Below are positions 20,225 through 63,065 of a stretch of 64,000 nt of DNA, in pieces (the stretch's first letter is position 1; the number at the start of each line of letters is the position of its first letter). Source of the stretch: Diplosphaera chodatii (Eukaryota; Chlorophyta; Trebouxiophyceae; Prasiolales; Stichococcaceae); assembly GCA_032358165.1 (NCBI GenBank), contig JAALGY010000061.1:62001-126000 (forward strand), in the 5' to 3' direction. A program made the position numbers and the translations under genes. The notes under the pieces are model-generated. The model was not told the DNA's origin, searched no databases, and saw nothing but the letters and a program-made list of their open reading frames with translations.

Positions 20225-21793
20225 ATGGCTGGCATGCTGATGCGCCGTTCGCTGCAGCGCTTGGCGCCGTCTCTGCGGGCTGTGGGTGCTGGTAGCCAGC
20301 GGTCCTTCGCCGCACAGGCCGAGCCCATCTCCAACGAAGAGGAGTACAATAAGTTCGCCTCCAGCTCCGACCGCAGCCATGTCACGTGGCCCCAGGCGCT
20401 CAACAAGCACCTACACGAGGTGGACCCCGAGCTGTATGACATCATCGAGAAGGAGAAGAACCGGCAGTGGAAGGGCCTGGAGCTGATCCCCAGCGAGAAC
20501 TTTGCGAGCGCCAGCGTGATGGACGCCGTGGGCAGCGTCATGACCAACAAGTACAGCGAGGGGTACCCGGGCGCCCGCTACTACGGCGGCAACGAGTTCA
20601 TCGACCAGGCCGAGTCGCTGTGCCAGAGCCGGGCTCTGGAGGCCTTCCGGCTGGACCCCGAGAAGTGGGGCGTCAATGTGCAGTCGCTGTCCGGCTCGCC
20701 CGCCAACTTCCAGGTGTTCACAGCGCTGCTGCAGCCGCATGAGCGCATCATGGGCCTGGACCTGCCGCACGGCGGCCACCTCAGCCATGGCTTCCAGACT
20801 GACGCCAAGAAGATCTCGGCCGTGTCCATCTTCTTCGAGACGCTGCCATACCGGCTGGACGAGAGCACTGGCCTGATCGACTACGATGCCCTGGAGCAGA
20901 CAGCCACCCTCTACCGCCCAAAGATCCTCATCGCTGGCACATCGGCGTACGCGCGGGCCATCGACTACGCCCGCATGCGCAAGATCGCCGACGCCAGCAA
21001 GGCGTACCTGCTGGCTGACATGGCGCACATCAGCGGCCTGGTTGCAGCAGGTGTTGTGCCATCGCCGTTCGACCACGCTGACATCGTCACAACCACCACG
21101 CACAAGTCGCTGCGTGGCCCGCGTGGCGCCATGATCTTCTACCGCAAGGGCGTGCGGGGCCAGACCAAGAAGGGCGAGGACATCATGTACGACCTGGACT
21201 CCAAGATCAACTTTTCTGTGTTCCCTGGACTCCAGGGTGGCCCGCACAACCACACCATCAGCGGCCTCGCGTGCGCGCTGAAGCAGGCCACCACCCCCGA
21301 GTTCAAGGAGTACCAGGAGCAGGTGCTGCGCAACTCGAAGGCCATGGCTGACCGGCTGCAGGAGCACGGCTACAGCCTTGTGTCCGGCGGCACGGAGAAC
21401 CACCTGGTGCTGGTGGACCTGAAGCCGCAGGGCGTGGACGGCAGCCGGGTGGAGCGCGTGCTGGAGCTGGCCCACATCGCCGCCAACAAGAACACCGTGC
21501 CCGGCGACAAATCCGCCATGGTGCCAGGCGGCCTGCGGATGGGCGCGCCGGCGCTCACATCCCGCGGCTTCGTGGAGTCCGACTTCCGCCAGGTCGCCGA
21601 CTTCGTGCACAGGGGCGTTGAGATTGCCAAGGAGCTGAAGGAGGCGTCGGGCCCCAAGCTGAAGGACTTCCGGGCGATGCTGGAGCAGGGCACCCCGCAG
21701 CCGATTGAGGACCTCAGGATGGAGGTGGAGGAGTTTGCCAAGAGCTTCCCAACCATCGGCTTCGAGAAGGCGTCCATGCGCTACAAGGACTAG
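20225..21793 (+). CDS. Mitochondrial serine hydroxymethyltransferase
   Basis: An uninterrupted frame of 522 residues. The N-terminus ([18 protein letters not shown], then SFAAQAEP) is a mitochondrial presequence. The mature enzyme has the expected fold-type I motifs: [50 protein letters not shown], and the PLP lysine in [12 protein letters not shown] at about residue 294. It converts serine and tetrahydrofolate to glycine and methylene-THF, and in photosynthetic cells also serves the photorespiratory glycine-to-serine step. Length and motifs are complete. The absence of introns in a gene this long is notable. Poly(A) signal at 22067. Confidence 0.97.
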
Positions 21794-30658: not shown

Positions 30659-33600
30659 TCATGAACCCGAGCGGCTCTGCTTGCCTCTGCTGCGACCGCT
30701 GCCCCCGCGCAGCCGTAGTATCCCAGCATCCCAGGGACGGACATCGTCACCACTGCTGGCGCAAGCAACGTCTGCCTCCCCTGCACATTGACATGCAACT
30801 GTGACTCGGTTCAGACAGCTGCATGCCCAAGCATAGCTCAAGGCTATGCAGCTGCAGGCAAGGTCAGCTATGTCTGCATCACAACCGCATTGGTGCAGTG
30901 CTTCGGGCAAGTCGTGAAGCAGCTGGCATTAGGGCCATGGCATCATGCTCACCTACGAGGCCTGTGTAGACGAACACCTGCAGATCTGGGTCATCAACGC
31001 TGCACATGTAGCCAGCGGCCAGCAGCTCCGCCTGGCGCCGCTGCACCTCAGCTTGTGTCTCCTCTGTGGGGTGAAAGACATACGCATACGCCGTCTCTGC
31101 GGCAGCTGGTTCCCCAATTGGCAGTGCACCATGCTGCCATGCAACAACTGACGTTTGCTGAGCTGCCACGCCAGCGCGTCGGACGTCAGCGCTGGCGTGG
31201 CAGCTGACGCCGCTGACGTCCGACGCGCTGGGCTCGGTGCTAATGCCCCGCTGTACGTACAGAGATAGGGCCCGTTGCTGGCTGGTGCTCATCATGCGCC
31301 TCAGCGTGCGCGCGGGGCCGTTGCCAATGATGTCTGGCACTTGCTGCTGCGCTGTGCTGCTGAAATCTGGTTTCAAACTGGAAAGGCCGCGAATGCTGTC
31401 CGGCAGCTGCTGCAGCGCAGGACAGAAGCTGCCATCAGGGTGACCAAATTGCAAAGGCGGCCGATGCTGTCTGGCAGCTGCTGCAGCAGAACGCAGCCGC
31501 TGACATCCAATGCTGTCAGGCTGCCAAGGCTGCCGATGCTGTCCGGCAGCCGCCGCAGCGCGGTGCAGCCGCTGACATCCAATGCCGTCAGGTTGGCCAG
31601 GCTGCCAATGCTGTGCGGCAGATGCTGCAGCGCCTTGCAGCCCTTGAGGTCCAGCATCACCAAGCTGCCCAGGCTACCGATGCTGTCAGGCAGCTGCCGC
31701 AGACGACGGCAATTTCTGACGTCCAGCGTCATCAGGCTGGCCAGGCTGCCGACGCTGTCGGGCAGCCGCTGCAAAGCCTCGCATCTGCGAATGGTCAGCG
31801 TCTGCAACATGGCAAGGCTGCCACTGCTGTCTGGCAGCCGTTGCAGGGTGCGGCAGCCGGCAAGGTCTAAGAGCTGTAAGAATTGCAGGCGGGCAATGCT
31901 TACGGGCAGCTGCAGCAGCCTGTGGCGCAGAAGCAGCTGCACCAGCTTGTGGCGCCTTGTAAGCTGCAGCACCTCGAGGTGCCTGAGGCTGCCGATGCTG
32001 TTTGGCAGGGAGCGCAAGCGGTGGTCGGACCACTCACTCAGGTAGCGCAGCTTGCTGCAGGCCGCTACGCTGTCCAGCAGCCCATGCCCGCAAGTGTTGT
32101 CACCAGGCGCATCCAACACCAGCAGCTGCTGGTTCAGCACTGCCCACTGATTGTGGTCATCCCTCAGGCACAGGAACAGCAACTCCAGCGGCATGTGCCC
32201 TTCGTCTGAGCTGCTGAACCACCTCATGCCAGGTAGTCTGCCTTGACTGCGTAGCGGCAGGTCCACAGCTGCCAAGCGGCCGCCATCAGCAGCAGTAGAC
32301 TGCTGATGGCGGTCCAGCAGCTCGCTGATTGTCCAAGCTGGCACATCTGCTGCAGCCGGCGGCCCCCTATGCAGCCGTGACGCTTGAGTTTTCAAGCTGC
32401 CAACCTGCAAGATGCAGAGAGGACCTGTCGGTGAATATCCTGCCTAGGTGGCAATGGATCACTCACTGCCAGCGCTTGCGCTCCATGCGATGCCGACCAA
32501 TTGATGGCAGCATGCAAGGTGCGAAACTGGGGGACCTGTGGCAGCCTGCTTGTTGGGGAGAGGCTGCTGAGGGGCCAGCTCGCAGGGCGGCTCAACCGCC
32601 TGCTGACCGCCCTCGCCATCTCCACCATGCAGTCGTGCACCTGAACTCTGCGCCCGTGCAGGCCCATGACCAGCTTAGTCCCCTTCTTCGACTGTTTCAT
32701 GGCTAATCATCTACATGGTCATGGGTGTCGTGACAGGCAAACGATCTGTCGTGCTCACCGGCTGACGTCTGTGAAGATGCCATCTTGCCATGCCATTGAT
32801 TCGGAGGCGCGGCAGCTGACGAGTGCCGCGCTTACGCAGGTGGTCCACAGCTCCTCCGCTTTGCGCCGCCAATGCGCCAGGGTGGAAGCCTGCCCCGGGC
32901 CCTTGTCGTTTTGCTGCTGCAGGATGCCAGCCCACACAAGCACCAAGTCCTCCTGGGGATGGCCGCGCATGAGCAGCGCTGCATCTAAAAACAGGTGCCT
33001 GCAACAAGCAACGTGCAACGCGATAAGTATCACGATAAGTATACATTCCTACTGTGAGCTGCGATAGCTAACCTCCTCTTCCATGGCAGCATCTGATGCC
33101 CCTGCAAACAACATTCCCACGACCAAAGCAGTTATGTCCGGCATACGAGTCCTATGGAGACAAGCACTGATCATCATGTGCAGCGGACCTGTGTTCGTCG
33201 GTGGGCAGACGGTCCAGGCTCCACTGCAGCACCGCCAAGACGTTTGATGGTCCCACAGTGAATGTGTTGCTGATGTCCGGGACTGCTAGCAGGTCCTTGA
33301 CAGCATCCTGTGGAAGCAACAGCGGCCCTAGTCCAAGCAACCAGATGCACCACGCAAGGATACAAAGGTACGACCTGCAAAACCATCACCCCGATGCGCC
33401 AGACCCAAGTCGACTCACATCAGCTGTTTCGGGGGAGCAGCTGCGCATCCCGGCACCCACCACCTGCAGCGCCAGCGGCAGGCCGCCGCATACCGCCAGC
33501 GCCTGCCGAATTGCCGCATGATATCCAGGGGGTGCCTGGTCTGCGGCAAAGGCGTGTTGGCACAGCAACTGCTCCGCCTCGTCATGCGCCAGCACCTTGA

Positions 33601-35074
33601 CTGGCCGCAGCAGGCACCTGCCGCCGTCAGGGTGCAAGTTGCTGCTGTCACGCCCAGTGAGGATGATGCGGCTGCCCTCTGCCAAGGCATCGAGGCTTAG
33701 CAGCGCGTCTCGCTGTGGCAATGTCCAGATGTCGTCCAGCACCAGCAGCAGGGCACCGGCATGCTGGATGCATCGCTCGAGCTGCTGCTGCTGCTGCGCT
33801 ACGCTGCCGGCTGCAGGTAGGCAGCTGCCTCCCAGCACCTGGATCAGCTGTTGCTGCTTGTATAGCAAAGGCGTGTCCTGCTTGACCTCGAGGAAGAGGC
33901 GGCTGCTGAAGTAAAGGCCACTACCGCTGAGGCGGTTGAACAGTTCTCTAGCCAGTGTGGTTTTGCCAATGCCGCCCGTGCCGTGCAGGCTGAGCACGCG
34001 CACGCCGCCAGGCTGGTCGGGCTGCAGCAGCGGCAGCAGCTCCTGCACACATGGCATGCTGTCAAGAGAACGCTGCCGCTACAGGCGTGTTGCCGGCAGC
34101 TGGGCGACACGAATCGCATGAACGCTGCGTCTACACAGCTACCCGAGCTTCTATGCCACTGCATGCGGAGGACCCAATGTGTTCGAACCCAGGCCTCATT
34201 GTTCAGAACTATGCTGTTCAGGTTTGAGAAAGTGTACCTGCACCCGGCTCTCCATACCCACAGCATATGTGGGCGCCTGAGAGGGCGGCCTTTTGAGACG
34301 GTGCAGCACCTCAGCAACGACGGCATCGACATGGAAGCTGTCCAGCCTGCATGGAAACATGGTGGATGTGCTGTGTGACAAGACTGCACAGCCATGCACT
34401 GCTTGTCTCCGTGCAGCAACACTGCAACACAGTGCAAGGTAAGTTCTGTGATGCCTTACACTAGTGGTGACTTGCAAGAAGATCCGGCTGCGAGCTACAC
34501 TCACTTTCTGTGCGAGTCCAGCCTGTCGCCAATAACCCGGTCGGCAAGGTCAGCGCCGATCTGCTGCAGCCGCTGCAGTGCTGCTGGCGGTGCGCCACCA
34601 TTGCGGGCCTCTGCCATCTGCAGCTCAACATCCTGCTGCAGCGCATCAATGTCGCTGGTGTGGTAGAACACTGGCAGCAGCAGCGGCTGGCTGCTGGCCT
34701 GCTGTGAGGCCTGGTGCAATTCTGCTTGCTGTTGAGCTGCACTGCCTGCTGTTGCCTGCAAATCTGATGCTGCCACAGCAGGGCGTTGCTGCTGCAGCTG
34801 AGAGGGATGCAGCGCCCAGTGCAGCTCCTTCAGGCAGTAGCTGCTGCGCACGAAGTCGGGCGTCAGCACAAACACTACCATGCTGCTGCTGCGAAAAGTG
34901 GCTTCGATCTCCGCGTCTGCAGCGTCACAGTTGCGCAGGCTGGTGTCGTCCAGGAAGGCGCTGACGCCGTGGCGCCGCAGCTCCCGCTGCAGCCACACCG
35001 CGAAGTTGGCCTTTTGCGGGCCCGCGTGGCTGATGAACACATCGTACGTCCTGCCGCTTGCTTCCCCGGGTGCC
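30659..35074 (-). CDS. TIR-NB-ARC-LRR protein TNL1 (frameshift in last LRR)
   Basis: Exons 35074-34505 (TIR), 34346-34238 (linker), 34042-33419 (NB-ARC), 33307-33189, 32998-32759, 32647-32536 and 32404 onward (LRR) keep phase throughout. TIR: YDVFISHAG, and the conserved Glu of YCLKELHWAL expected in NADase-type TIRs. NB-ARC: P-loop GTGGIGKTT, Walker B LLLVLDDIW, GSRIILTGRDS, CGGLPLAL; the MHD position reads VHDCMVEMAR. About nine LRRs of the LPDSIGSL type follow. At 31421-31440 the repeat spacing is 17 instead of 18 bases, so the LRR frame stops at 31373. The other frame continues through the next LRR into a ~220-residue post-LRR region with a final exon 30780-30659. The TIR exon starts after an acceptor, so a short 5' exon is missing. 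Likely an intracellular immune receptor by family. Confidence 0.85.
31161..31229. repeat. Two overlapping inverted repeats in the post-LRR part of TN L1
   Basis: AGCTGCCACGCCAGCG at 31161-31176 is the reverse complement of 31190-31205. A second perfect 19-base pair of arms is 31173-31191 and 31211-31229. The arms overlap, so the two hairpins exclude each other. It lies in coding frame b of TNL1. Confidence 0.8.
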
Positions 35075-38643: not shown

Positions 38644-41600
38644 TCACTTTAGGCGGACTGCAATGCTGTCTGGCAGCGGCTGCAGCACCGCACAGCCGTC
38701 ATAGCACAATGATTGTAGACTTGGCAGGCCACCAATGCTCTCTGGCAGGCATTGGAGTGCTATGCACTCCCTAACGTCCAGCACCTTCAGTTGCAAGAGG
38801 CTGCCCATATCATTTGGCAGCCGCTGCAGCGCCACACATCCAGCGGCGTCTAGCATCTCCAAATTACCAAGGCTGCTGATGCTATCTGGCAGCCGCTGGA
38901 TCATCGGACAGTCTGCGATGCTCAACACCTCCAACCTGGGAAGATTGCCGAGGTTGTCTGGTAGGCGACACATGGTCAGGCACGTCTCGACACTAAGCCG
39001 CTTCAGATTGGGCAGACCGCAGATGCTGTCTGGCAGCCGCTGCAGCAGTGCGCAGCCGCTGACGTCTAGCTCCCTCAAATTGCTGAGGCTGCCAATGCTG
39101 TCTGGCAGCTGCTTCAATGCTGCACAGCCATTGGTATAGAGCATCTTCAACTCGGAAAGGCTGCCAATGCTCTCTGGCAGCTGCTGCAGCGCCCCGCACC
39201 CTCTGATGGCCAGAAGGTTCATCCTCGGAAGGCTGCTGATGCTATCTGGCAAGTGCTGCAGCGCCGTGCAGCCATCCAGGAACAGTAGTTTCACCCTGCA
39301 AAGACTGCCAATGCTGTCCGGCAGCTGCTGCAGCACTGCAGAGTTTGTGACTTCCAGCATTTCTACGGTGAGGCTGCCAACACTGTCCGGCAGCTGCTGC
39401 AAAGCCACGCAATCCAAGACTGTTAGCAGCTCCAAGCTGGATAGGCTGCCAATGCTGTCTGGCAGCTGCTGCAGCGCATCACAGTCTTTAATGCTCAGCA
39501 TCTGCAGGCTGGACAGGCTGCCGATGCTGTCTGGCAGCTGCTGCAATGTTGTGCAGCTGCTGATGTACAGAGCTTGCAGACTGTGAAGGCTGCCAACACC
39601 GTCTGGCAGACTCCGAAGGGCTTTGCAGCCTTCGAGGTTCAGCTCCGTCAGCCAGCCAAGGCTGCTGATGCCGTCTGGCAGTTGTTGCAGTGCAGTGCAA
39701 TCCCTGACTTGGAGTGTCATCAAGCTGCAAAGGCGGCCGATGCTGTCCGGCAGCTGCTGAATGCCCGCACAACCATCAATGCAGAGCCATGCTAAGCCGG
39801 AAAGGCGGCCGATGCTGTCCGGCAGGTGACGCAGCGCTGTGCAGTTGCTGACATTGAGCGTCTTCAGGCTGCGCAAGCTGCCAGCGCTGCCAGGCAGCTG
39901 CTGCAGCATGCTGCAGTTGCCCAGGTCCAGATGTTCCAGGCGACGTAGACGGGTGATGCTGTCTGGCAGCTGCGCAAGCCCGCTGCAATTGTTGAGCCGC
40001 AGCGCCTGCAGGTGGCAGAGCCTGCTGATGCTGGCGGGCAGGGAGCGCAACCGCCGGTCCGACAGCCTCAGGTGGCGCAGGCCGCTGCACGCTGTGATGC
40101 TGTCTGGCACGCTGTAGTCACAAGCACTGTCACCAGCTACATCCAGCACCAGCAGCCGCGCGCCAAAGGCCCACTGCTGCGGCGAAGCCACCAGCCGCAG
40201 GTATAGCAGGTGTTGTGGCATGCCGCCGAGGGCCGCGCCAGCAGCCAGGTCTGCCGCGTCCTCTGTTGGTGCGTGCGGCAGGTCCACAGCCGCCAGCTGG
40301 CACTGCTGATGGCGGCTCAGCAGCTGGGTACACGTCCAGGGTGGCACATTTGATGTTCCCGGCGGCCCGCACTGCAGCCGTGATGCATCAGCTTGCCGAG
40401 CGTTGGCCTGTGGCAGCGCGCATGTGGCTGAGAGACTGCTGAGCAACCAGGGCGACCAAGTGCCAGAGTGCGCCAACCGCTTGCTCACTGCCCTTGCCAT
40501 CTCCACCATACAGTCGTGCACCGCAACCCTGGTGTAGATGTCCTTGCCGGTGTCGTGAAAGGTGATGAGCGTGGCGCGTGCGCAGGCATTGCACAGGGCC
40601 TCAGCTTCCTGCCGCCAGTATGCCAGCGGAGCAGGCTGCTGCATGCCGTCCTGCTGCTGCTGCTGCAGCATATTAGCCCACACTGCCACCAAATGCTCCG
40701 TAGGTTGGCTGCGCATGAGCAGTGCTGCGTCCAGGAACAGGTGCCTGTGATTGTCCGTTGGCAGCTGGTTGAAGCTCCTCTCCAACACCGGCACCAGAGT
40801 TGGTGTATGCCCCCCGCTGCCTGTTACCGGACTTAGGTGCTGGATACCCGCCTCAGCTGCTTCAGGCGAGCGGCTGCGCATGCTGGCACCCACTGCCCGT
40901 AGTGCCAGCGGCAAGCCGCCGCACAAGGTCAGTGCCTGCTGCACTGCTGCAGTGTGCTCTGGAGGTGAGCTTTCTGCGGCAAAGGCATGCCAGCACAGCA
41001 GTTGCTCTGCATCTTCATCCGTCAGGAGCCCCACATGGCGAAGCACGCAGCTGCCGCCCTCCGGGTGCAAGCTGCTGCCGTTGCGCCCTGTGAGGATGAC
41101 GCGGCTGCCATCTGGCAGAGCGTCGAGGCGCAGCAGCCCGTCCCTCTGCTCTTCCGTCCAGATGTCGTCCAGCACCAGCAGCAGCGGACCAGCGTGCCAG
41201 ATGCGTTGCTCGAGCTGCTGCTGCCGCTCAGCCGCACTGCCGGCAACTGGCACAGAGCCGCTTGTCAGCAGTTGCAGCAGCTGCTGCTGCTTTTCTGCCA
41301 CATGTGTATCCTCTCCGACCTCAAGGAAGATATGGCTGCTGAAGCGAAGGTTCCCTCCGCTGAGATCGTTGAACAGCTCTTTGGCAAGTGTGCTCTTTCC
41401 AATGCCGCCCATGCCGCACAGGCTGAGCACGCGCACGCAGCCAGGCTGATCGGGCAGGAGCAGCGGCAGCAGCACCTGCACAGACGATACACCTCATCTT
41501 CGGCTCTGCAGCGAAAAGAATACTCATCTATATTCCAGATAACAATGCACAGCAGTTGCAGAGTTTGCCGGCAGGAGGATTATAGGTACTGCTGGCAAGC

Positions 41601-42477
41601 GTAATCTTTGGAATGCATGTGCAACCACTGCTGGTGATGATGTACCTGTACCCGGCAGTCCAGGTTCACGGCATATGCGGGCACCTCAAACCTCGGCTGA
41701 TTCAGGCGTCTCAGCACCTCCGCAACGACAGCATCGACATGAACATCGTCCAGCCTGCAAGGACCGTCAATGCTCAATGTACAGTCTTTGCAAAAGCATC
41801 ACGAAATGCAACCTTGTGTTTCCAACTTGGTGGAAGGAAGCAGCAGGAGGCATACATAGGAACTGGTATGCACCCCCCAGGGCATGCCAAGAAGGTGCAT
41901 GTTGCTCACTCACTTGCCAAGCAGGTCCTGCCGGTCGCCAGTGATCCGGCAGACGGCGTCGAGATCAGTGCTGGCTTGCCACAGCCGCTGTAGCTGCATG
42001 GGAAGTATGCAGGACATCCGCGTCCAAATGATCCGCCACTGCAGTTGCCTCTGCAGCGCACCGATGTCACTGGTGTGGTAGAACACCGGCAGCAGCAGCG
42101 GCGGCTGCCTGCTGCGCTGCTGTTGGGGTGTATTGCCGCCAGCTGCTGACTCGAGCTGCTCGGCTGGCGCAGCGGTGGTCTGCAGCCGCGCTGGGTGCTG
42201 CTGGGAGGGGTGCAGCGCCCAGTGCAGCTCCTCCAAGCAGTAGGCGCTGCGCAGGAAGTCCGGCGTCAGCACAATGACCACAATGCTGCAGCTGCGCAGC
42301 GCTGCCTCCATTTCCGCATCAGCTGCGTCCCCCAGTCGCAGGCTGCGCTCATCCAGGAAGGCGCTGATGCCGTGACGCCGCAGCTCCCGCTGCAGCCACA
42401 CCGCAAAGCTGGCCTTCCACGTGCCCGCGTGGCTGATGAACACATCGTACGTCCTGCCGCTGGCTGGCTGACTGTTC
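38644..42477 (-). CDS. TIR-NB-ARC-LRR protein TNL2 (intact, NB to LRR in one exon)
   Basis: Exons 42477-41914 (TIR), 41754-41646 (linker) and 41475-38644 (NB-ARC plus LRR, 943 codons and stop) give about 1,167 residues plus a missing short 5' exon. TIR: YDVFISHAG, GISAFLDERSLRLGDAADAE and the Glu of YCLEELHWALHP. NB-ARC: P-loop GMGGIGKST, Walker B LLLVLDDIWTEEQR, GSRVILTGRNG, CGGLPLALRAVG and VHDCMVEMAR at the MHD position. Twenty LRRs follow, most of the form ALQQLPDSIGSLSSLxxL, ending PLPDSIAVRLK. The four introns that split the corresponding region of TNL1 and TNL4 are absent. Of the four TNLs this and TNL4 show no lesion. Role as intracellular receptor with TIR NADase output is inferred by family. 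Confidence 0.9.
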
Positions 42478-42570: not shown

Positions 42571-43862
42571 AGGCATACGAAGCATTGCCTGGGTCATGAA
42601 ATCCGCCCAACCTGGTGCCCTGTGCCATCATCTCAGGTTTCAGCCAAGTCTGGGCATTACGCAAGGTTGTGCCATCGCATCCACCTGCAGCGGTGCACAT
42701 ACCAGACTGAGCTGGAAGCTTACGGATGTGGCACATGACTTCTGCTGATCAAGATGGGAGTCGTTGCCATGGTCTACTACCAGAACATGACACAGTGATT
42801 GCTGAGCGGTGAATGGAAATGAAGATACAAGACATACCGTACAACGAACCTGCAGCATGAATAGTAAGCCAACAGGAGACGAGCACCAGGCAGCTGATCA
42901 TGACATGCAGCATCTCACACTGCATCAGAATGGCCGCGAGTGCTGCACACAGCAGTAAGAAAATCCAACATGTCAGCCCCCCTGGATGCGCTGCTGACGG
43001 GATGTTGACAAACCAGCAATGATGCGCACTCTTGATGAAAAAAGCGGTTGCTGGGCAGGCTGGGCGTTACAGCAATGCGATCAGAGCAGCATTGCCTGCC
43101 GCAAACATCCATGGTTGATCAGGAAACGAACCTGTTATTGGGATGCTCATGACGACAGCCAAAGTGGCGGGGGTTGTAGGCAATGGGCCGATGCGCGCAA
43201 TGACGGACGGCATCATCCTAGTGCGTGCCGCTGCGCCGAAGTATGTATGTATGCCTGCTGTATGTTTGGCCTTACACAGAATTGGGCCTTTCGCTGGGAG
43301 CCATGCCTGCATCACAGGCACCTCCAGCTGCGGCTCGGGGGATTGGACGTCGAGGTGCTGCATGCCTGAGTTTGAGCCATATACAGTTGCGACGGATGTA
43401 TCAAACCCACATGCAGAATAAAACTGGTGCACAGCTGCAGTTTGGCACAGCGCACCCTCCGCCTCGCCGCACATGAGATCAACATTCATTCGTTAAGCTG
43501 CGTTGTGCATGCTGCGTGTTATGCGTGCCATACCACCCAAAGATCTACCCTGTCGGGCAAGGAGGGGCACACATCAACTTTAGGGCTAGCATCGTGATCG
43601 ATCATGCAGCAGATGTGTGCATGCAGCAGGACGCTCACCGAGGGCATGAGCCGCACAGCAGGTCGAGATGTGACCAGCACTAACAGCTGCGGCTAATGCT
43701 CGCATTTGCACGCACGCGAGTCCAAGCACGCGTCAATCATCACGCGGTCCCTGGCCGCATACACCGTCAGCACTACCTGCATTCTGATGGCTATGTGCCG
43801 TGGAGGCACATTGTACCAGCTTGAGCCAGTTCACATCCTATAGCGAGGCAACAAGGCAGAAC
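42571..43862. other. Divergent region between TNL2 and decayed membrane-EP gene
   Basis: Presumably held the promoters of both. Open frames on either strand around 43067-43489 show no recognisable domain and no splice-consistent extension. Nothing else identified. Confidence 0.4.
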
Positions 43863-44290
43863 TTGGTCGTCGGCGTGGTCGCCATCATCACATCTGTGGT
43901 TGCGATCCTGGCGTCAGTAGTACAGTTTTGATCTCTCCATCGAGCGGGATCTGCTGGCAGTTACACCGGAACGGTTACAACGGCCCTTGAAAGACCTATG
44001 CAGAGGTGGCAACCCGCACCATGGCACAGGTCATGGTCACAGCAGAGCGATCAAGGATTCAACTGCACAGCCAAGCAATGCACATACAGGACAGTGCCAT
44101 CCGATGTCTGCTCTCTGCTGCTGTGAAATACCCTGTCCATCTGTCCATCCAGCTGCTGAGCTGTGATGATCTGCTGTTGCTTGGTACACCTATGGCATTG
44201 CCGGGCCGCCATGCTGCGCGAGCGTCAGCAATACAGCAGCTGCAACCTGGTGTCGCTAATGCTGCTGCGCGGCCAGAGCCTCCCAGAAGC
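43863..44290 (+). pseudogene. Decayed copy of the membrane-anchored EP-like gene
   Basis: 43863-44030 is closely similar in DNA to exon 1 of the gene at 49618. It reads LVVGVVAIITSVVAILASVVQF and then TGA at 43929-43931, against LAIVAIIVSVVALLASVAQFLI in the intact gene. The start ATG is also lost. A weaker match to exon 2 appears near 44205-44270 (MLRERQQYSSCNLVSLMLL against MTPLEEQQLRAAQMDLLL). No EP-motif exon remains. It is head-to-head with TNL2, just as the intact gene is with TNL3. Confidence 0.75.
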
Positions 44291-44739: not shown

Positions 44740-47700
44740 TCATTTTGACTGCCTGTACTGCCTGTACCCTCTGAGGAAGCGGTCAATGGGGTCCCTGAGC
44801 TCTGCCTCGCCTTCCGTGATAGACAGCCCGTTCAAGCTCGACATGCTCTGTGGCAGCTGCTGCAGCCGCCAGCAGTCGCTGATGTTCAGGCTGGCCAGCT
44901 GAGTGAGGCCGGCAATGCTGCCGGGCAGCTCCTGCAGCTTCACGCAGGCACTGATGTCCAGGGACTGCAAGCTGGAGAGGCTGCCGATGCTGTGCGGCAG
45001 CTGCTTCAGGCTGCTGCATTGGCTGGCGTTCAACGTTGCCAGCCGACGCAGGCTGCCGAAGCTGTCTGGCAGCTGCTCCAGCGTGCTGCACCCGCTGATG
45101 TCAAGCGCCTCCAACCTGGACAGGCGGCCGATGCTGGGCGGCAGCTGCTGCAGCGCCACGCACCTCGAGGCATCCAGCCCCACCAGGCTGTGGAGTCTGC
45201 AGAGGCTGTCCGGCAGGTGCTGCAGCGCCAGGCACAAGCTGATGTCCAGCGTCTCCAAGCTTGAGAGGCGACCGAGGCTGGGTGGGAGCTGCCGAAGCTG
45301 TGTGCACGTGCTGACATCCAATTCCAGCAGCCTAGACAGGCTGCCAATGCTGTCCGGCAGCCGCTGGAGCGCCTTGCTGTGGCTGATGCCCAGCACCCGC
45401 AAGCTGGGCAGGCTGCCAATGCTGTCTGGCAGCTGCCGCAGCGCTGTGCAGCCACTGACGCTGAGGACGTCCAAGCTGGCCAGGCTGCCAATGCCGTCGG
45501 GCAGCTGCTGCAGTGCTGTGCACCAGGTGCAATACAGCGCTTCCAAGCTGGGCAGGCTGCCAATGCTGTCAGGCAGCTGCCGCAGTGCCGTGCAGCGCTC
45601 GATGTTCAGCCACCGCAAGCTGCGCAGGCTGCCAATGCTGTCGGGCAGCTGCCGCAACGTCGTGCAGCGCTCGATGTTCAGCCACTGCAAGCTGGGCAGG
45701 CCGCCGATGCCCTCTGGCAGCTGCTGCAGCGCGCCGCAGGCGGTCAGTTCGAGGTGCCGGAGGCGACCGAGGCGTGTGGCGCTGTCAGGCAGCTGCGCCA
45801 GGCTGCTGCAGTCGCACAGCAGCAGCGACTCCAGGTGCTCCAGGCTGCCGATGCTGGCCGGCAGGCGGCGCAGCTGCCGGTCCGACAGCCTCAGGTGCCG
45901 CAGCCCGCTGCACGCCGAGATGTCGTCCGGCAGGTCGTACTGGTAGGCGCTGTCGCCGCACGCGTCCAGCACCCGCAGCTGGGCGCCGAAGGACCACTGC
46001 TGCGGCGCCGCCGCCAGGCGCAGGTACAGCAGCTTTGACGGCCCCGGGTTCGGGCCGGAGGCGGCGGCCGCGCCACGCGCGTGCGTTGCCGGGAAGTGCG
46101 GCAGGTCCACGGCCGCCAGCTGGCACCGCGGGTGCCGGGCCAGCAGCTCGCCGATGCTCCAGGGCTGCATGCCTGAGGCCCCCCGCGGCCCGCAACGCAC
46201 CCGGGACGCCTGCGCCCCGAATTCCTCTCCCTGCAAGGCTGCACTCTCACAGTCCCGCCTGTGCGTCTGGTAGTTGCGCACGCAGAGTAGTGGTGCAGGT
46301 GGCGCGGGCAGGCACCTGCGGCAGGGCCTCATCGCAGGCGATGTCGTGGAGGGTCCAGTCCGATGGCTGCAGACCCTTTGCGACTGTGTCCAGGCCCATC
46401 TCGACCAGGCAGTCGTGAACATCGATGCTGCAGCCACAGAACCCTTGCATAAGCATGCGACTGATGGGACAACAGCACGGCTCGATGCAGCAGTGCAGCG
46501 GCATCTTCGCAGGGCATACACTTCACAAGTCTCACAGATCCGCGGTGATGGTGACGAGGGAGTTGCTCCACAGCACGGCGAGCATCTGCGCGGCCTTGAA
46601 CTGCAGCTATTCGGGGCCGACGGGCGCCTTGCGCCCCGGCATGCGGGGCCGCTGCACCAGGGCCGCCCAGGTTGCGAGCAGGTGCTCCCGCGGCTGTCCC
46701 CGCAGCATGATGGCAGCATCCAGGAACATGCGCCTGCCAGCACGTGCAACCAGCTATGCACGTCGGATGCACGGCATAAGAGGTACAGAGTGCATGCCGT
46801 GTCAGGGTGTCAAGGCGACTACGGTTTGTTATCTTCATTCAATGCAAGCAAGTTGCCAAATGCTGGCTCTCCTTGAGTGAGGTCACCTGTGATCATCGTC
46901 CGGCAGCCGGTTGTAACTCCACCGCAGCAGGGCCAGCATGTTTCGAGACTGGGCAGGTCCACTCTCCGTGCGGCGGCAAAAGCTGTTGGGTGCTGCCAGA
47001 AGATCCCGAAGGTCATCCTGCACCGTGTCCGCATCAAGATGAGCACCCACAGACTCGATCTCACACACACTGCTTGTTCGCTTCCTGTTGAGGCAGCAGG
47101 TCATGCGCGTAGCAGCTCTGAAAGCGCAGCCGGCGGACACCGCTTGCCTCGCAAGCAGAGGCGGCGCGGCCCCGCAGCGAGCTGCCCACCACCTCGAGCG
47201 CCAGCGGCAGGCCGTCGCAGATGTGCAATGCCAGGCGCACAGTTTCCTGCTCCGCCGGCCCGAGGGAGCCTGCTGCGGTGATTGCGTACGCGTGCCAGCA
47301 CAGCAGCCGCCGCGCCGCCGCATCGTCCAGCGTGTGCACCGGCGCCCGGATGCAGGCGCCGCCCTCGGCGGGCAGCACGCTGCTGTCGCGTGCGGTCAGC
47401 AGCACGCGGCTGCCGGCTGGCAGCGCGTGGGCGCACAGGAGTGCGTCCCGCTGGTCGGCCGTCCACACGTCGTCGATCAGCAGCAGCAGCGCGCCGCCCT
47501 GCCGCACACACTGCTCGAGCTGCTGCTGCTGCTGGCCGCTGCTCAAGGCCGCCGGCAGGGAGGTCGGCCCCGTGAGCTTGTCCAGCAGCAGCCGCTGCAG
47601 CGCCGCGGGCACCCCATCCTGGCCCACGTCCATGCAGATGTGGTGTCTGAACTGCAGGCGGCCGCTGCTGCTGAGCTGGTTGAAGAGCTCGTTGGCCAGT

Positions 47701-48797
47701 GTTGTTTTGCCGATGCCGCCCATGCCGTGCAGGCCGAGCACGTGCACGGCACTTGGCTGGTCGGGCTGCAGCAGCCCCAACATCGCCTGCAGACAGAGGA
47801 ATAAGGTCTACGGAGGCGACATGGCTGCATGCTGTGTTGCTCACGCTAACATTGCGACTGGTGCGGCTGCAGAGGCGCTTGTTCTGGGGACGCAGCACCA
47901 TACGCCGTACCTCTGCACGCGCAGCAAGGTCGACTGCGTAATCAGGTGTCTTCAAGCGGGGGCGCTCCAGATCCCACAGCACCCTTTGAACAATGGCGTC
48001 CACATGTACCACGTCCAGCCTGCAACAGCTGATTGCCCTCACTTGCCGATGACCATGTGCAACACATCAACAACAGCTGCCAGTCACGTGCTCTCCTGCA
48101 CACATGCATGGAAACACCTCTCGCTGCCGCTCGAGATGTGGTCATGCAACCACAACGTCAGAGCTGCTGCAGGCAAGTACGCCCACCACACAACCAGAAA
48201 CCTGCTAGGGATGCTTACTTTCCGTGCGAGTCCAGGCGGTCGCCTGTCCGCCTGCAGGCAGCTGCCAGATCCTCGCCAGCTTGTTGTGCCGCCGCCCTGT
48301 CGGCTGCAGGAGCCGCTGCAATCTGACTGGCCATCTGCTGCTGCAGGGCAACGATGTCGCTGGTGTTGTGGAACACCGGCAGCAGCAATGGCGGCTGGCT
48401 CTTACCACGCTGCACTGCGCAGGGCTGGCCCGGCGTCGGCAGCCGTGCTGCTGCTGTGACTGCGTCTGCATCCCCGTCACAGGTGCCCCCGGCGAACTTC
48501 TGCTGCAGCGGGGGGTGAGGCGCCTGTGGGTGCAGCGCCCAGTGCAGCTCCGCCATGCAGTAGGGGCTGCGGAGGAAGTCGGGCGTCAGCACCGCCACGA
48601 CGATGGCGCAGCTGCGCAGCGCTGCCTCCATCTCAGCATCCGCAGCCTCGCCCAGCTGCAGGCTGGTCTCATCCAGGAAGGCGCTGACGCCGTGGCGCCC
48701 CAGCTCCCGATGCAGCCACGCCGCGAAGCTGCTCTTCTGCTGCCCGGCGTGGCTGATGAACACATCGTACGTCCTGCCGGTGGGTGCACTGCTCTGC
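44740..48797 (-). CDS. TIR-NB-ARC-LRR protein TNL3 (in-frame TAG in NB-ARC)
   Basis: Exons 48797-48219 (TIR), 48019-47911 (linker), 47786 to about 47060 (NB-ARC, 3' boundary uncertain), 47017-46887, 46733-46536, 46427-46316 (112 bp, as in TNL1 and TNL4) and 46230-44740 (LRR, 497 codons). TIR: YDVFISHAG and Glu of YCMAELHWALHP. NB-ARC: P-loop GMGGIGKTT, Walker B LLLLIDDVWTADQR, CDGLPLALEVVG; VHDCLVEMG at the MHD position. Fifteen LRRs, then a basic tail RGYRQYRQSK. In exon 46733-46536 the codon at 46607-46609 is TAG, with coding similarity on both sides. A 57-base GT-AG stretch around it could be spliced out in frame, otherwise the protein is truncated before the LRRs. It is head-to-head with the intact membrane-EP gene. 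Confidence 0.85.
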
Positions 48798-49617: not shown

Positions 49618-50703
49618 ATGAGCCAAGAACTGACTCTCGCTATCGTCGCCATCATCGTATCTGTGGTTGCGCTCCTGGCATCGGTGGCACAGTTCCTGAT
49701 CTCCCGGTGGGATCTGCTCGCCAGCGCGGCGGAACATCGCCTGCAGGCGCTTGAGAAGAGCTATGCGGAGGTGGCGCAGCCCGCCATGGCGCAGGTGGGG
49801 GTCTGTGTGACAGCAGAGCAGTCGCGACACGTGACTTTCTCCTGCACATGCATGCGTGGTGCGAGCAAACTATTGCCGCTGAGTGCTTGCTGCTGACTGT
49901 CGGTGATCACACAATGGCATGTCCCGTGCGGCAGCTGGATGCCATCAAGATGATGTACCAGGGCGATGCGCTGTGGACGGCGCTGCAGTTCCGGCCGCCC
50001 GCCGGCGCCAACATGACGCCGCTGGAGGAGCAACAGCTCCGCGCTGCGCAGATGGACCTGCTGCTCGCCGAGCAGCGGGCCCGAAACGCGGTCAAGGGGT
50101 TCTGGGACGACACGTTGCGCGCCATGCAGCAGGTGATCCGCACCGCTGTGCGGCATGCATGCTGTGCAGACGAGTTGCCTGCTGTGTGACGATCCGAGCA
50201 TCCAGCATCGCTACTTCACTCGACATCCGCTACGAAAACCAGGGCATGCGTTGGCACGCGAGCCCTCTGAACGTCCGTGTCTTGATCTCGCCACTGCTTG
50301 TCACCAGGGCAAGCTGCCGCGAGCGTTCGGCGAAACGTCTGATGACCACATCCATTTCGCCTCCAGCCGCTGGATGTACCGCGCCAACAACTTCCGGGAA
50401 CTGGCGGAGCCCTTTGACATCGCCAACTACTACCGACTGGAGCTGGACCGCTCCTCGGGACACTATCTAGAGGGCAATAGGCCGAGCACCTACGAGAAGC
50501 TGGAGCGCATGTGGCGGCAAGACTGTGACACCAGGATCCCGCGCCCAGCGACAATGATCTCGTCGGTCGCTTGGGCTGACGCGATGTCGACGGTTCGCGG
50601 CGCGCCAGAGTCTGCAGCAATGCCCAACAAGGCAGTGCAGCGGCTGCCACCGCCGGACCTGCCGCCTGGCCGCACACTGCCGCTGGTGCACACAGCACTG
50701 TGA
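49618..50703 (+). CDS. Membrane-anchored protein with EDS1-type EP-like module
   Basis: Exons 49618-49794, 49935-50132 and 50308-50703 join in phase 0 to exactly 256 residues. Residues 7-28 form one hydrophobic helix (LAIVAIIVSVVALLASVAQF), then a charged helix (AAEHRLQALEKSYAEV). Exon 2 is helical (EEQQLRAAQMDLLLAEQRAR) and ends VKGFWDDTLRAMQQ. Exon 3 starts GKLPRAFGET and carries the key block FRELAEPFDIANYYRLEL, then HYLEGNRPSTYEKLERMW. The same order of motifs and the same phase-0 intron before the LP-x-x-F element occur in the TIR gene at 61261. The motif resembles the EPLDIA signature of the EP domain of plant EDS1/PAD4/SAG101, from memory. No lipase-like domain is present. A role as partner or sensor of TIR signalling is inference. 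Confidence 0.75.
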
Positions 50704-54428: not shown

Positions 54429-57400
54429 TCAGCACCACTCACCTCTACTGCGGTCCGCATCACATGGCAACGGACGCGCCGTTGCTGTCTCTGCGGGACG
54501 CGCAACCTGGCAAGGCTGCTGACACTGCTCGGCAGGCACAGCAGCGCCGTGCGGCGGTGGAAAGTGCGTCTCCGAGCTGACAAGGTTGCTCATGCTGTCC
54601 GGCAGCTGCTGCAGCGCCTTGCAGCCGTTGTGACCCAGCCACACCAGGTTCGACAGGCTGCCAAGGCTGTCTGGCAGCTGCTGCAGCGCTTCGCAATCGC
54701 TCACATCCAGCCTCTCCAACCTGGCCAGGCTGCCCATGCTATCCGGCAGATGCTGCAGCTTCCAGCAGCAGCTGATGTCCAGCGTCTTCAAGCTACAAAG
54801 GCGGCCGATGCTGTCCGGCAGCTGCTGCAGTTCATGACAGCAGCTGAGATCCAACAGTTCCATGCTGGAGAGGCTGCCGATGCTGTCTGGCAGCTGCTGC
54901 AGCTGCCAACACCATCTCAGCTGCACCAGCTTCAGTGTGGTCAAGCTGCCAAGGCCCTCTGGCAGCTTGCGCAGGCTGTTGCACTCGGTCAGGTCCAAGT
55001 GCTGCAGGCGTTGCAGGCAGGTGATGCTGCTCGGCAGCTCTGCCAGCCTGCGGGAACCGCTCAGCAGCAATGCCTCCAGGCTGATGAGGCTGCCAATACT
55101 GGCAGGCAGGCAGCGTAGCTCCGAGCCACACATCTTCAGGTGCCGCAGCGCGCTGCAGGCCGCAATACTGTCTGGCAGCTCGCACATGCCACGACCGGAC
55201 ACTTCCAGCACCAGCAGCTCCCCACCAAATGCCCAGTGGTGCGGCGCCACTGGCGACCGCAGGTACAGCAGCTCTGGTGGCAAGTCAACACGAGTCGAGC
55301 TGGCGGGGCTTAAGGCCCGTCCTGAACTCTCTGCCAAATCATGCGGCAGGTCCAGAGCTGCCAGCTGGCAGCGCTGATGGCTGGTCAACAGCTGGGTGAT
55401 AGTCCAAGCTGGCGCGTGTGCGGCGCCTGCGGGCCCGCACAGCAGTCGCGGTGCCTGAGCTTGCAAGCTGCCGGCCTGCACACGTACAAGCACATGTCCT
55501 CTTCACAGCTCGACATACTCTGTTCACAGTTCGATTTGGTTTACAGCGGCCTTGGTTAGCAAAACACGGCACGGTCATCCTTGCGCACAGCAGCATCGCA
55601 GCACACGAACCTGCGGCAGCCTGGTCGTTGGAGACAACCTGCTGAGAGACCAGTCAGTAGCATGGCTCAGGCCCTTGCCCACCGCCCGCGCCATCTCCAC
55701 CATGCAATCGTGCACCTGGACCCTGCACTCGTGCAGCCGTGTGCTCAAGTGCACATGCATACCTGCGGTCAGAGTGTGGCTAGCCGCAAGCAAACCCAGA
55801 AACACATGTGTTGCCATGCCGGACCAGGAGGTGAGCACCTGCTGTAGATGGCATCGTCCGGAGCGCTGCGGCAGGTGACGAGTGTGGCGGCTGCGCAGAC
55901 GTTCCACAGCTCCTCAGCTTCGTCCCGCCAATGCGCTGGGGTGGGGGGCTGCTGCAGGCCATCATCATCCTGCTGCTGCAGGATCCTAGCCCAGACCAGC
56001 AGCAGGTGCTCTTTCGGGTGGCCACGCATGATGAGCGCGGCATCCAGGAAAAGTTGCCTGCACAAAGCAAAGCACTTGTGCATGGGTTGGGCAGTCAGTA
56101 CATGTTATTACCTGAAGCGCCGACGTCAGCACTGCAAGAGAGCTGCCTGCTGCTGCTGATGAAGCACCGACACGAAGCATTGCTCTAATCCATGTCCCCA
56201 TGAAAGACTCGTCGGCTGCACCTGTGGTTGTCTGTTGGCAGCTGGCTCCAGCTTCTCTGCAAGATCGTCAGCATATCCAGAGCGCCCCCAGCGGCACCGT
56301 AGCGCCCAACATCAGGGCCAGGCGTTGCCAACAGCTTCCTGATGCTGTCCTGCACACCATGAAACTGGTTGCATTGCTGCAGCAGAGTGTGTGCAAACAG
56401 TTTGGCAGTCAGCGTGCACGCACGCCAGCTGCTGCAGGTCAGACTGCCTCACCTCAGCTGCTTGAGGCGAGCGGCTGCGCATCCCGGCGCCCACCACCTG
56501 GAGCGCCAGCGGCAAGCCGCCGCACACGTCAAGCGCCCGCGCGACAGCCGCAGCGTACTCCGGAGGCGCAAACTGTGCGGCAAATGCGTGGTGGCACAGC
56601 AGCTGCGCTGCCTCGCTGCGCTCCAGCTCCTCAACGGCGCGCAGCAGACAGCCGCCGCCATCGGGGTGCAGCTTGCTGCCGTCGCGCCCTGTGACGATGA
56701 CGCGGCTGCCGTCTGACAGGGCGTCGAGGCACAGCAGTGTGTCACGCTGCCCTGTCTCCCAGATGTCGTCCAGCACCAGCAGCAGTGGACCGGCGTGGGA
56801 CGTGCATCGCTCGAGCTGCTGCTGCAGTGGCACTGTGACGCCAACATGTGACATGGGGCTGCCTGTCAGTAGCTGGAGCAGCTCCTGCTGTTTGTCCACC
56901 AGGGTCACACCCTGCCCGACTTCCAGGAAGATGCGGGTGCTGAAGCAGCAGCTGCCACTGCTGAGGCGGCTGAAGAGCTCCTTGGCCAAAGTCGTCTTGC
57001 CAATGCCGCCCATGCCATGCAGGCTGAGCACGAGCACACCGCCGGGCTGGTCAGGCTGCAGCAGCGCGAGCAGCGCCTGCAAAGGTAACAAATGAGTTTG
57101 TGGACTTCGTTTGCGGACTTGGCTGCTGAACTTTCATACATACAGCTGGTTGCCCAGTGTGCCTGGCATTTGCACATGCCTTGCTGGCACTGCACCCAGG
57201 GAGATTGAGATGCATTGCAGGCAAGCGTGGCCGGTCATCACAATGCACCTGCACGCGACTGTCCAGATCCACAGCGTATGTGGGCGCCTCAAAGGCTGGT
57301 CGGTCCAGGCGTCGCAGCACCTCCGCCACGATGGCATCGACGTGAACATCGTCTAGCCTGCGGAATGTGTCAACTTACTGTTGGTGAAGGAAGCACAGTG

Positions 57401-58093
57401 GAAGTGCACGACAGCGCACAGCAACATCATCCAGTTTCGTGGAGGTTCGGGAATGCTAGGCGTGGTGTCAAAAGGGTTTTCAGGAAGCAAAGAACAAGTG
57501 CCACTTACTTGCCCTGCGAATCCAGCCGGTTGGCGGTGAACTCATATGCCGCGGCAAGGTCGGTGCTGGCCTGCTGCAGGCGCTGCAGCTCCGCGGCCGA
57601 TGCGCCATTTGTATGCGCCTCAGCAATCTGCCGCTGTATGTCCTGTTGGAGCGAATCCATATCGCTGGTGTGGTACAGGACTGGCAGCAGCAACGGCGGA
57701 TTCTTGCTGCGCTGCCGTGTGGTCTGCTGCGAGCGTGCATCCTTGCAACTTTCGCTGCCTGTGGCTGCCTGCTTCGCAAGTTGCTCAGCGGACTCTGGCA
57801 GCTGCGCTGGGTGCTGGTGGGAGGGGTGCAGCGCCCAGTGCAGCTCCTTCATGCAGTAGTTGCTGCGCACGAAGTCGGGCGTCAGCACGACCACCACGAT
57901 GCTGCAGCTGCGCAGCGCGGCCTCCATCTCCACACCTGCCGCATCGCCATACTTCAGGCTGCGCTCGTCCAGAAAGGCACTGACACCGTGGCGCCGCAGC
58001 TCACGCCGCATCCACACCGCGAAGGTGGCCTTTTGCGGGCCCGCGTGGCTGATGAACACGTCGTAGGTTTGACCACTGGCCTCCTCTCGCTTC
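54429..58093 (-). CDS. TIR-NB-ARC-LRR protein TNL4
   Basis: Exons 58093-57509 (TIR), 57357-57249 (linker, 109 bp), 57076-56453 (NB-ARC, 624 bp), 56349-56222, 56057-55839, 55722-55611 (112 bp) and 55475-54429 (LRR) give about 941 residues plus a missing 5' exon. The 109, 624 and 112 bp exons match TNL1 exactly. TIR: YDVFISHAG, GVSAFLDERSLKYGDAAG, Glu of YCMKELHWALHP. NB-ARC: P-loop GMGGIGKTT, Walker B LLLVLDDIWETGQR, GSRVIVTGRDG, CGGLPLALQVVG, and VHDCMVEMARAVG. Only eight LRRs are present; the last runs into an unrelated Pro/Ala/Arg tail (HFPPPHGAAVPAE) and a stop. Compared with TNL2 the LRR array is therefore short and its end may be eroded. Intracellular receptor role inferred. Confidence 0.87.
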
Positions 58094-61260: not shown

Positions 61261-63065
61261 TTACACCACAGCAGCGCCCTCCGCCTCAATAGCAGCCTGC
61301 TCCCTCTTGGCGTCCTCGGTGGAGGAGGGGCAAGTCCTCCCGGGGTGCGCACGCTCCCAGCACCGCTCGATGTACACATAGCGCTCCGGGCGGTTGTCTG
61401 ACTCCAGGTAGTGCCGCTCGCCTGGGGGGTGGCCTTTCCAGAACTGGTTGGGCGGGCGGTAGTAGTTGGCGATGTCGATGGGCTCGACCACTTTGCGGTG
61501 GTTCATGGCGCGAGCCAGCCAGACGCTGTCGGCGTCCATGAAGTCTGCCGGCAGTCTGCCAGCCTGGATGATAGCACACCATCAAAGCTGAAGATCATCA
61601 CGCTGCCCATGAGCATGCAGATACGCTGCCACCTGTAACAATCACTATGTATACAACAGATCGCGGCGCTCAGCAGTACTTGCACAAGGTGCACACACCT
61701 TGTGCCACCGCACAACCAGGTCCCAAAAGTTGCGGAGCTCGCCACGGGCAATGTTTGCCGACTTGAAGTCGCCAGCACACGTGCGGAAGGCGTTGTACCG
61801 CGCTGCAGCGTCGCCGCCGCCGTACACTTCAAATGCATCCATGGAGTCAGTGCAAGCCCTATATTTCTGCTCCAGTATGCTGAGGTTGGCTTCCAGCTCG
61901 TCCTCCTGCACATGCCCATGGTTTGACGTGTGGCTGGTGCCATAGTATCAGATGCAGCAGTCGTCAGGGCGTGGTGGATCATGGTGCAAGTCCTGTCGCT
62001 CATGATGCACAAATGCGCCGTGCGGCTGCTTGCTATGCAGCCCTCCGATCGCACCTGCCGCTTGTAGTCGCCACTCGGGTCATAGTGCACCCCGGCTCCT
62101 AACTTTCCGACATCTTTCAAGGCTGCCACAATGCGGTGTATCAGCTCCTCCTCCCCCCTGGTGGGCAGCTTTGGGTTCGTCTGCGATAACACACGATCAC
62201 ATGCGTCCAGATGATATCATGTGATGAGCGCCTCGCCTACGGGCACTGCTTTAACATGCAGCAGGAGAGCCGCAGGACAACATGCGTCACAACACACCTC
62301 CACTGCACCGCAGCGTGATGCACCGACCTGATCACTGCGCTGGCCGGTGAGGCTGCACAGCTTGTCGATGTAACCTGCCCATAGCTGCAGCGTCTCCTGT
62401 GCGGGCCGCTTCTCGTGCCCACGCACTTCGAACTTGTTCTCGCGATACTGCTGTGCGATCCTGCCAAAGTCTGCGATCTCCAGGTCCCAGAAGTATGGGA
62501 CCACGATCTGGCGGTCTGCATCGGGAACGACGACTCCTGCAGCACGCTGCTCGTCCTGCTGCACCTGGCGATCCATCAGCAGGCCCAGCTCCCACATGCA
62601 CCAGCTGCCCCGCACAAACTCCTCGCTCAACACCACCACACCTGCAATGCTGCCCACGGCATGCGTTAGCCCTGAAGGATGCAAGTGATTGATGTTATGG
62701 GCAGCGCACTGCAACACGGGAAGTCGTGACGAAGAGGTGCACACCATCTAATCCGACCGAGGCGTTGCAACAAAAGGAGGTACAGCACCAGACCTCACGC
62801 ATGCATTGAACTCCTGCGCCAACGAGATGCTGCAAGGGCCACGCACCAACGGCGGCACCCTGCAGGGCGGCCTTCATGGCCGCTGCGCGTCGCCGTGGGT
62901 GAGGCCCTCCTCGTCCAGGAACGCGCGCCGGCGGGCGGGCGGCAGCCGATTCAGGTCCTTTCGCACAAAGTCAAGCATGCGCTTGACTTCGCCGCTGTCC
63001 TGAGCGCCCGAGTGGCTGAGGAACACATCATAGTTTGCGCCTGCCGAACCTGTTTGTCGGCACAT
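61261..63065 (-). CDS. TIR protein with C-terminal EDS1-type EP-like module
   Basis: Exons 63065-62847, 62641-62328, 62180-62055, 61905-61699 and 61563-61261 give about 389 residues. TIR: YDVFLSHSGAQDSGEVKRML, RRRAFLDEEGLTHGDA, GVVVLSEEFVRGSWCMWELG (conserved Glu) and IVVPYFWDLEIADFGRIA, closing with EEELIHRIVAAL. There is no NB-ARC or LRR. The last two exons (169 residues) form a helical module: NFWDLVVRWHK, then LPADFMDADSVW and KVVEPIDIANYYRPPN, HYLESDNRPERYVYIERCW. The intron between them is at the same place and phase as in the membrane protein at 49618. Near 62881-62890 one base seems missing: THGDAQ should run into AAMKAALQGAAVG but is one frame off. ATG 63065 is used; an upstream exon is possible. 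The stop overlaps a TGTAA. Confidence 0.75.

Follow-up and report, generated by a model that had tools for sequence, protein, structure and literature searches.

Does a green alga carry, within a single protein, a TIR domain and an EP module of the kind known from the EDS1 family of seed plants, and would such a protein mean that the partnership of the two is old? The question is raised by a locus at 63065-61261 on the reverse strand of the window (the whole 64,000-nucleotide stretch of DNA analysed here), where an EP-type helical module comes after a TIR domain, both on one strand. The gene is read as five exons:

62847..63065, reverse strand: exon 1, with the start codon and the first half of the TIR (YDVFLSHSG..FLDEE)
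62328..62641, reverse strand: exon 2, the second half of the TIR with the catalytic-type Glu (SWCMWEL) and GT..AG intron sites
62055..62180, reverse strand: exon 3, a linker of the sequence type RIVAALKDVGKLG, as found after the TIR in the TIR-NTPase-TPR genes of contig C10
61699..61905, reverse strand: exon 4, the first half of the EP (DFK, FW), with matches to PF18117 and in the PDB
61261..61563, reverse strand: exon 5, the EP core VVEPIDIANYYR..HYLESDNRPERY and the stop codon, with matches to PF18117 and in the PDB

All introns between these exons have GT..AG ends, and the frame that leaves exon 1 stays open across the four introns until the stop codon, which argues for one TIR-EP gene, whose exons 1-5 are presumably joined in a single transcript. 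Judged by its sequence, the fused module is a true EP homologue, as an earlier note on this DNA had proposed. The profile comparison suggested there, exons 61905-61699 plus 61563-61261 against PF18117 (EDS1_EP), returns 52.2 bits (E 7.8e-14), the curated cut-off being 23.1 bits, and in single-sequence comparison with solved chains the module matches PAD4 (E 1e-9) and EDS1 (E 1.5e-9), with a weak match to SAG101 (E 0.006). A chance motif match is ruled out by the profile E-value and by those for PAD4 and EDS1 (~1e-9). The structural comparison likewise points to an EP fold: a member of the EP family from a metagenome has a predicted structure with this fold, with Foldseek E-values between 0.004 and 0.05, none of them below 0.001.

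The front of the gene was said to hold a complete TIR with the conserved Glu. Both the domain and the residue are present, but the frame that encodes them is broken by one base. When the two TIR exons are read through this break they match PF01582 with 37.5 bits (E 2.7e-9); exon 1 alone gives no Pfam match, and exons 2-5 alone give a TIR score of 13.6 bits, below the cut-off of 21.3. The conserved Glu is found in the fusion TIR (SWCMWEL) and in that of TNL3, a receptor gene of the window (SPYCMAEL), and we take it, from its position in plant TIRs, to be the Glu of the NADase site.

The five exons total 1169 nt, which is not divisible by three, and in exon 1 the reading frame meets a stop after '...HGDAQRP'. 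A one-base deletion can be placed between about 62891 and 62876. Three of six sister TIR genes on C10 match across this stretch, each of them one base longer than the fusion (169/168, 171/170 and 169/168), from which it follows that one base has been lost in exon 1; the remaining three matches stop short of it. This loss is either decay of the gene or an error of the assembly, and the stretch in which it lies is not a long homopolymer. A splice variant that skips the break was sought by eye, and the sole candidate was rejected since it deletes FLDEE, which is conserved in the sister TIRs. The single TIR-EP protein of the earlier note is thus upheld in its five exons and canonical introns but is broken, in this assembly, in its fused frame.

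Searches of the alga's own genome (85.6 Mb in 55 contigs) point to where the two halves came from. At the DNA level there is just one copy of the whole TIR-EP gene. Six genes on C10 resemble it in the TIR exons (71-85%), and six EP genes resemble it in the EP core (76-83%). The fusion TIR is nearer to the TIR-NTPase-TPR genes of C10 than to the receptor TIRs that surround it, and the fusion and those C10 genes have in common the linker 'RIVAALKD.GKLG' as well as the intron that follows the TIR; an intron within the EP falls at the same place in the fusion (after FWDLVVRWHK) and in the EP genes with a membrane helix (after FWDDTLRAMQQ). In its sequence, the fusion looks derived, combining the front of a TIR-NTPase-TPR gene of the C10 type with the EP of a local family. 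Joining two local gene families, it need not be old, and it is probably not the ancestral state; the fusion as ancestral form was rejected on the greater closeness of its TIR to the C10 genes than to the neighbouring receptor TIRs.

The C10 genes form a tandem array in which six members carry this type of TIR (3080325-3084500, 3092910-3097000 and four more TIR matches up to 3151740). Two copies were compared, and the one read fully consists of a TIR, a P-loop NTPase and TPR repeats, the NTPase matching several STAND/AAA models, all below their cut-offs. Stops lie inside two of the six TIR matches, so part of the array may be decayed. At C10:3088474-3089144 a TPR-like frame is followed by a C-terminal EP remnant (HYTAKRPGIF.., TYQSSLLWAEKA; C10:3088809), another mix of receptor and EP parts, probably decayed.

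The fused EP belongs to a family. The genome is of the green lineage, as shown by 56 chlorophyll a/b-binding matches, one of which was checked and is an LHC gene, in line with the green-alga setting of the earlier note. All ten PF18117 matches in it exceed the Pfam cut-off; an eleventh EP gene, EP11, lies on C9, and there are two EP remnants (window 43857-44032 and C10:3088809). The fusion is numbered EP6. Among the ten unfused genes, EP1, EP2, EP3, EP7, EP8 and EP10 were read whole, with start codons assigned by eye, and EP4, EP5, EP9 and EP11 were read partly. Members other than the fusion located in the window include:

49618..49794, forward strand: exon 1 of EP1, an N-terminal hydrophobic helix (membrane anchor) and the start of a coil
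49935..50132, forward strand: exon 2 of EP1, helical, ending FWDDTLRAMQQ
50308..50703, forward strand: exon 3 of EP1, the EP core AEPFDIANYYR..HYLEGNRP and the stop codon (PF18117, 1.5e-11)
43857..44032, forward strand: EP fragment, divergent to the receptor gene TNL2 with a gap of about 1.4 kb, the remnant of a further pair

A membrane-type N-terminal helix is predicted in nine of the ten unfused genes: the best 19-residue hydropathy is 2.35-2.87 in the six genes read whole and 2.65-2.80 in EP4, EP5 and EP11, and EP9, peaking at 1.19, is without a clear membrane helix. Four of the membrane EP genes are under purifying selection (dN/dS 0.26-0.39 in all six pairs). EP4 (C1:1955399-1954301) has an in-frame stop right after the membrane helix, with its EP core intact, and is probably a pseudogene. 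The earlier note recorded that EP domains have been regarded as always paired with a lipase-like domain, and no such pairing was found here. A six-frame exon search gave 47 Lipase_3 matches, none of them close to an EP locus; where the two share a contig, the smallest distance is about 255 kb. The EP reading frames have either the hydrophobic helix or a TIR at the position of the lipase-like domain of EDS1. The same kind of search gave no match to RPW8 (PF05659) in the genome.

The surroundings of these genes are rich in receptors. The genome has 30 TIR and 25 NB-ARC matches, mostly adjoining, and the window holds four loci in which TIR, NB-ARC and LRR matches follow one another:

34804..35052, reverse strand: TIR of TNL1, for which no EP partner was found
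33443..34039, reverse strand: NB-ARC of TNL1
31376..32443, reverse strand: LRR open frame of TNL1
42195..42455, reverse strand: TIR of TNL2
38647..41493, reverse strand: NB-ARC and LRR open frame of TNL2
48515..48778, reverse strand: TIR of TNL3, the divergent partner of EP1 with a gap of 840 bp
47166..47786, reverse strand: NB-ARC of TNL3
44743..46809, reverse strand: LRR open frame of TNL3
57811..58074, reverse strand: TIR of TNL4
56471..57052, reverse strand: NB-ARC of TNL4
54432..55502, reverse strand: LRR open frame of TNL4

In TNL3 the three domains score 70.0 (TIR_2), 93.2 (NB-ARC) and 193.7 bits (LRR_14), all above their cut-offs, with the joining of exons inferred; TNL1, TNL2 and TNL4 each have matches to all three. 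Housekeeping genes, encoding GrpE and serine hydroxymethyltransferase, stand beside the cluster at 18617-19666 (reverse strand) and 20213-21790 (forward strand) of the window.

The common arrangement is that TIR and EP are encoded by two genes transcribed away from each other. Twelve EP loci were scored, namely the eleven genes and the window fragment at 43857-44032, with the C10 remnant left out, and at ten of them the closest TIR on the list is encoded on the other strand, some 0.84-2.6 kb upstream, several of these gaps being measured from match ends rather than start codons. An adjoining NB-ARC is present for eight of the ten paired TIRs. Two of these pairs are flawed: the TIR of EP2 is a fragment, and that of EP7, a membrane EP, is the broken TIR-EP fusion, from which EP7 diverges across 1146 bp. 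The exceptions are EP6, which is the fusion, and EP9, which has no TIR match nearby except a weak one (E 0.002) that lies downstream and on the same strand. Counted from the receptors, an EP partner was found for 8 of the 25 NB-ARC loci and none for 17 in the flanks read. A second, more divergent TIR-NB-ARC group occurs on C9, C28 and C30, and its member on C9 has a divergent EP gene (EP11). The suggestion that a one-chain fusion would mark a TIR-EP link that is old, or that arose twice, is thereby recast, the fusion being probably a derived form and the common layout one of separate, divergent genes.

Within this family the fused EP is, on sequence, the most plant-like and closer to EDS1 and PAD4 than are the membrane EPs. 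Its core shares 38-39% identity with three plant EP segments, a closeness like that between PAD4 and EDS1 of Arabidopsis (35%), and the remaining algal EPs that were aligned reach 23-36%. In an unrooted tree the fused EP and three plant EPs are split from all other algal EPs included (support 99.3/98); the tree, built with three plant fragments and without P0008, P0009, EP4 and EP11, shows a split and not a history. Cavity residues of EDS1 are defined by Arabidopsis mutant work, K440/441, K478 and R493 in the available text of PMC6377607 and F419 and H476 in that of PMC8185089. In a HMMER alignment the fused EP keeps F419, K440 and R493 and has K441 replaced by Ala and H476 by Pro; opposite K478 it has a Lys, which stands beside a gap in a low-confidence stretch of the alignment. 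The membrane protein EP8 has none of the six, which counts against assuming the same ligand. The membrane EPs, as far as their sequences tell, keep the signature of the fold and not the charges of the EDS1 pocket, and may bind another ligand or none. A PDB chain, 9vel_r (Gp29.2), weakly matches the EP of EP8 (E 3.8e-4) and does not match the fused EP.

Relatives of the algal EPs occur in other samples (P0001-P0009). Seven of these, P0001-P0006 and P0009, are shorter pieces, and the two longer ones are built like the membrane EPs, with a hydropathy of 2.31 in P0007 and a weaker 1.44 in P0008. Among the 8000 candidates to which a profile search was limited, only P0007 and P0009 matched.

From these observations a module can be proposed. 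A TIR-NB-ARC-LRR receptor would detect a threat, its TIR would turn NAD+ into a nucleotide signal, and this signal would be read by the EP protein whose gene stands head-to-head with that of the receptor. In most of these EP proteins a hydrophobic, membrane-type helix takes the place of the lipase-like domain of EDS1. In the one structure modelled, this helix leads without interruption into the first helix of the EP, so that ligand binding would directly change a membrane-bound protein, and the output could be clustering or a pore, formed without an RPW8 helper. The TIR-EP chimera, its frame broken in this assembly, would place producer and reader within one chain. The NADase activity, the TIR product as ligand, the membrane output and the immune role are all inferred. 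The pocket of the plant system is situated where EP domains from two different proteins meet, which counts against ligand reading by the membrane EPs. That the alga has a TIR-to-EP signalling module, taken as a whole explanation, we regard as an evenly balanced proposition. More tentatively, and at less than even confidence, the system could be a simplified and perhaps ancestral version of TIR immunity, in which a nucleotide made by the receptor TIR is read by a divergently encoded membrane EP that disrupts or gates the membrane, without lipase or helper NLR, and in which the same clusters give rise to chimeras.

The place of the fusion in such a scheme depends on how its frame was lost. It could well be a dead chimera, a product of recombination in the cluster, in which case only the separate receptor and EP pairs matter; we put this just short of an even call. 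The deletion in exon 1, the single-copy state of the gene, the further TPR/EP remnant on C10 and the stops in two of the six C10 TIR matches all fit such a fate, as does, as a weak negative, the finding of no fusion relative at E 0.01 among 270 candidates from the protein collection, a search that missed P0007 and P0008 even though both fall within its length window. It sits less easily with the open exons 2-5 and their intact splice sites, with the unbroken motifs VVEPIDIANYYR and NRPERY, and with a dN/dS of 0.33-0.45 between the fusion TIR and two sister TIRs, a ratio that pools the time before the break with the sisters' own constraint. If the break is instead an assembly error, a working one-chain protein might make and read its own signal, or act as an EDS1-like partner of EP7. 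This is possible though not what we would expect: every other exon is intact, and EP6, the most plant-like EP and the one with F419, K440 and R493 of EDS1, stands opposite the membrane protein EP7 at 1146 bp, but the break does not lie in a long homopolymer. It is very improbable that the TIR exons and the EP exons are two neighbouring genes, given the continuous frame across four canonical introns, a linker exon 3 that is in phase, and a fused EP for which no separate start exon with a membrane helix was seen (the hydropathy of exon 4 does not exceed 0.13).

Two further accounts concern the EP proteins at large. They might be adaptors that pass the signal to an unrecognised helper NLR, the helix serving only to position them. 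There is a precedent in plants, where EDS1/PAD4 act with ADR1 (PMC12856790, in the part available), and some of the 17 NB-ARC loci for which no EP partner was found could be helpers; we nevertheless consider it unlikely, as no RPW8-type helper was found in the genome search and the membrane helix sits within the EP protein itself. Transfer of EP from seed plants into algae, with no bearing on how the plant pathway arose, would agree with statements in excerpts of PMC9806590 and PMC10834447 that EP is reported only from seed plants, with none in charophytes or non-seed land plants. It has little to recommend it beside the deep difference of the algal EPs (23-39% identity to three plant EP segments), the eleven EP genes with an architecture of their own, the relatives P0001-P0009 in other samples, and the EDS1 genes placed in Chromochloris (PMC7145615, available part). 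Compared with these accounts, the TIR-to-EP module remains the reading preferred here, and under it TIR and EP may have been signalling partners since long before seed plants.

The available passages of the literature are divided on this point. A 2022 paper states that EP 'uniquely defines the EDS1 family' (PMC9806590), a 2024 paper confines EP proteins to seed plants (PMC10834447), and a 2020 review called for algal relatives of the downstream parts of the TIR pathway (PMC7282519). The view that EP is a seed-plant feature, which the earlier note cited, had already been contradicted in print in 2019: three EDS1 genes are placed within an NLR cluster of Chromochloris zofingiensis, in one sentence and a figure mark (Andolfo 2019, PMC7145615). 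The presence of EDS1-type genes next to receptor genes in an alga thus has genuine prior art, and the two clusters are alike in having such genes next to TIR-NB-LRR genes in a chlorophyte. The layout there is termed operon-like, and EP architecture, a membrane helix on EP, divergent pairing and a TIR-EP fusion are not described in the available part of that paper. Within the open-licence literature, preprints excluded, the passages retrieved hold no mention of a TIR-EP fusion or of the membrane-EP architecture.

The fully read C10 copy, with its TIR, P-loop NTPase and TPR repeats, appears TNP-like and so recalls the plant TNP (TIR-NB-TPR) proteins, from which it differs in an NTPase that matches STAND/AAA models only below cut-offs. 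Chlorophyte (Chromochloris) TIR-NB-LRR receptors are treated by Andolfo 2019 and are reportedly also the subject of studies that others attribute to Shao in 2019 and Feng in 2024. The receptors of the window resemble them in having TIR, NB-ARC and LRR in one gene and in being clustered, and differ in being divergently paired with EP genes. In the bacterial Thoeris systems an effector responds to a signal produced by a TIR, and that reader is not known to be related to the algal one. The likeness to Thoeris is one of logic only, a TIR gene beside a reader gene (PMC12856790, in part), and motif scans gave no EP relative in prokaryote genomes (60 stretches) or in viral contigs (68 stretches).

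With EDS1, PAD4 and SAG101 of seed plants the alga has two things in common. The EP domain is common to both, by Pfam, by sequence comparison with solved chains and by the predicted fold of a relative, and so is the link to TIR receptors, in the alga by gene position. The alga differs in having a membrane-type helix or a TIR in the place of the lipase-like domain, in that an RPW8 helper was not found, and in that EP8 is without the EDS1 cavity residues checked. Algal EP genes that are physically paired with TIR receptor genes, and that bear a membrane-type helix where the lipase-like domain would be, suggest that EP as a signal reader predates both the lipase-EP fusion and the RPW8 helpers, and they make it possible to test, in a single-celled system, how TIR-EDS1 signalling arose.
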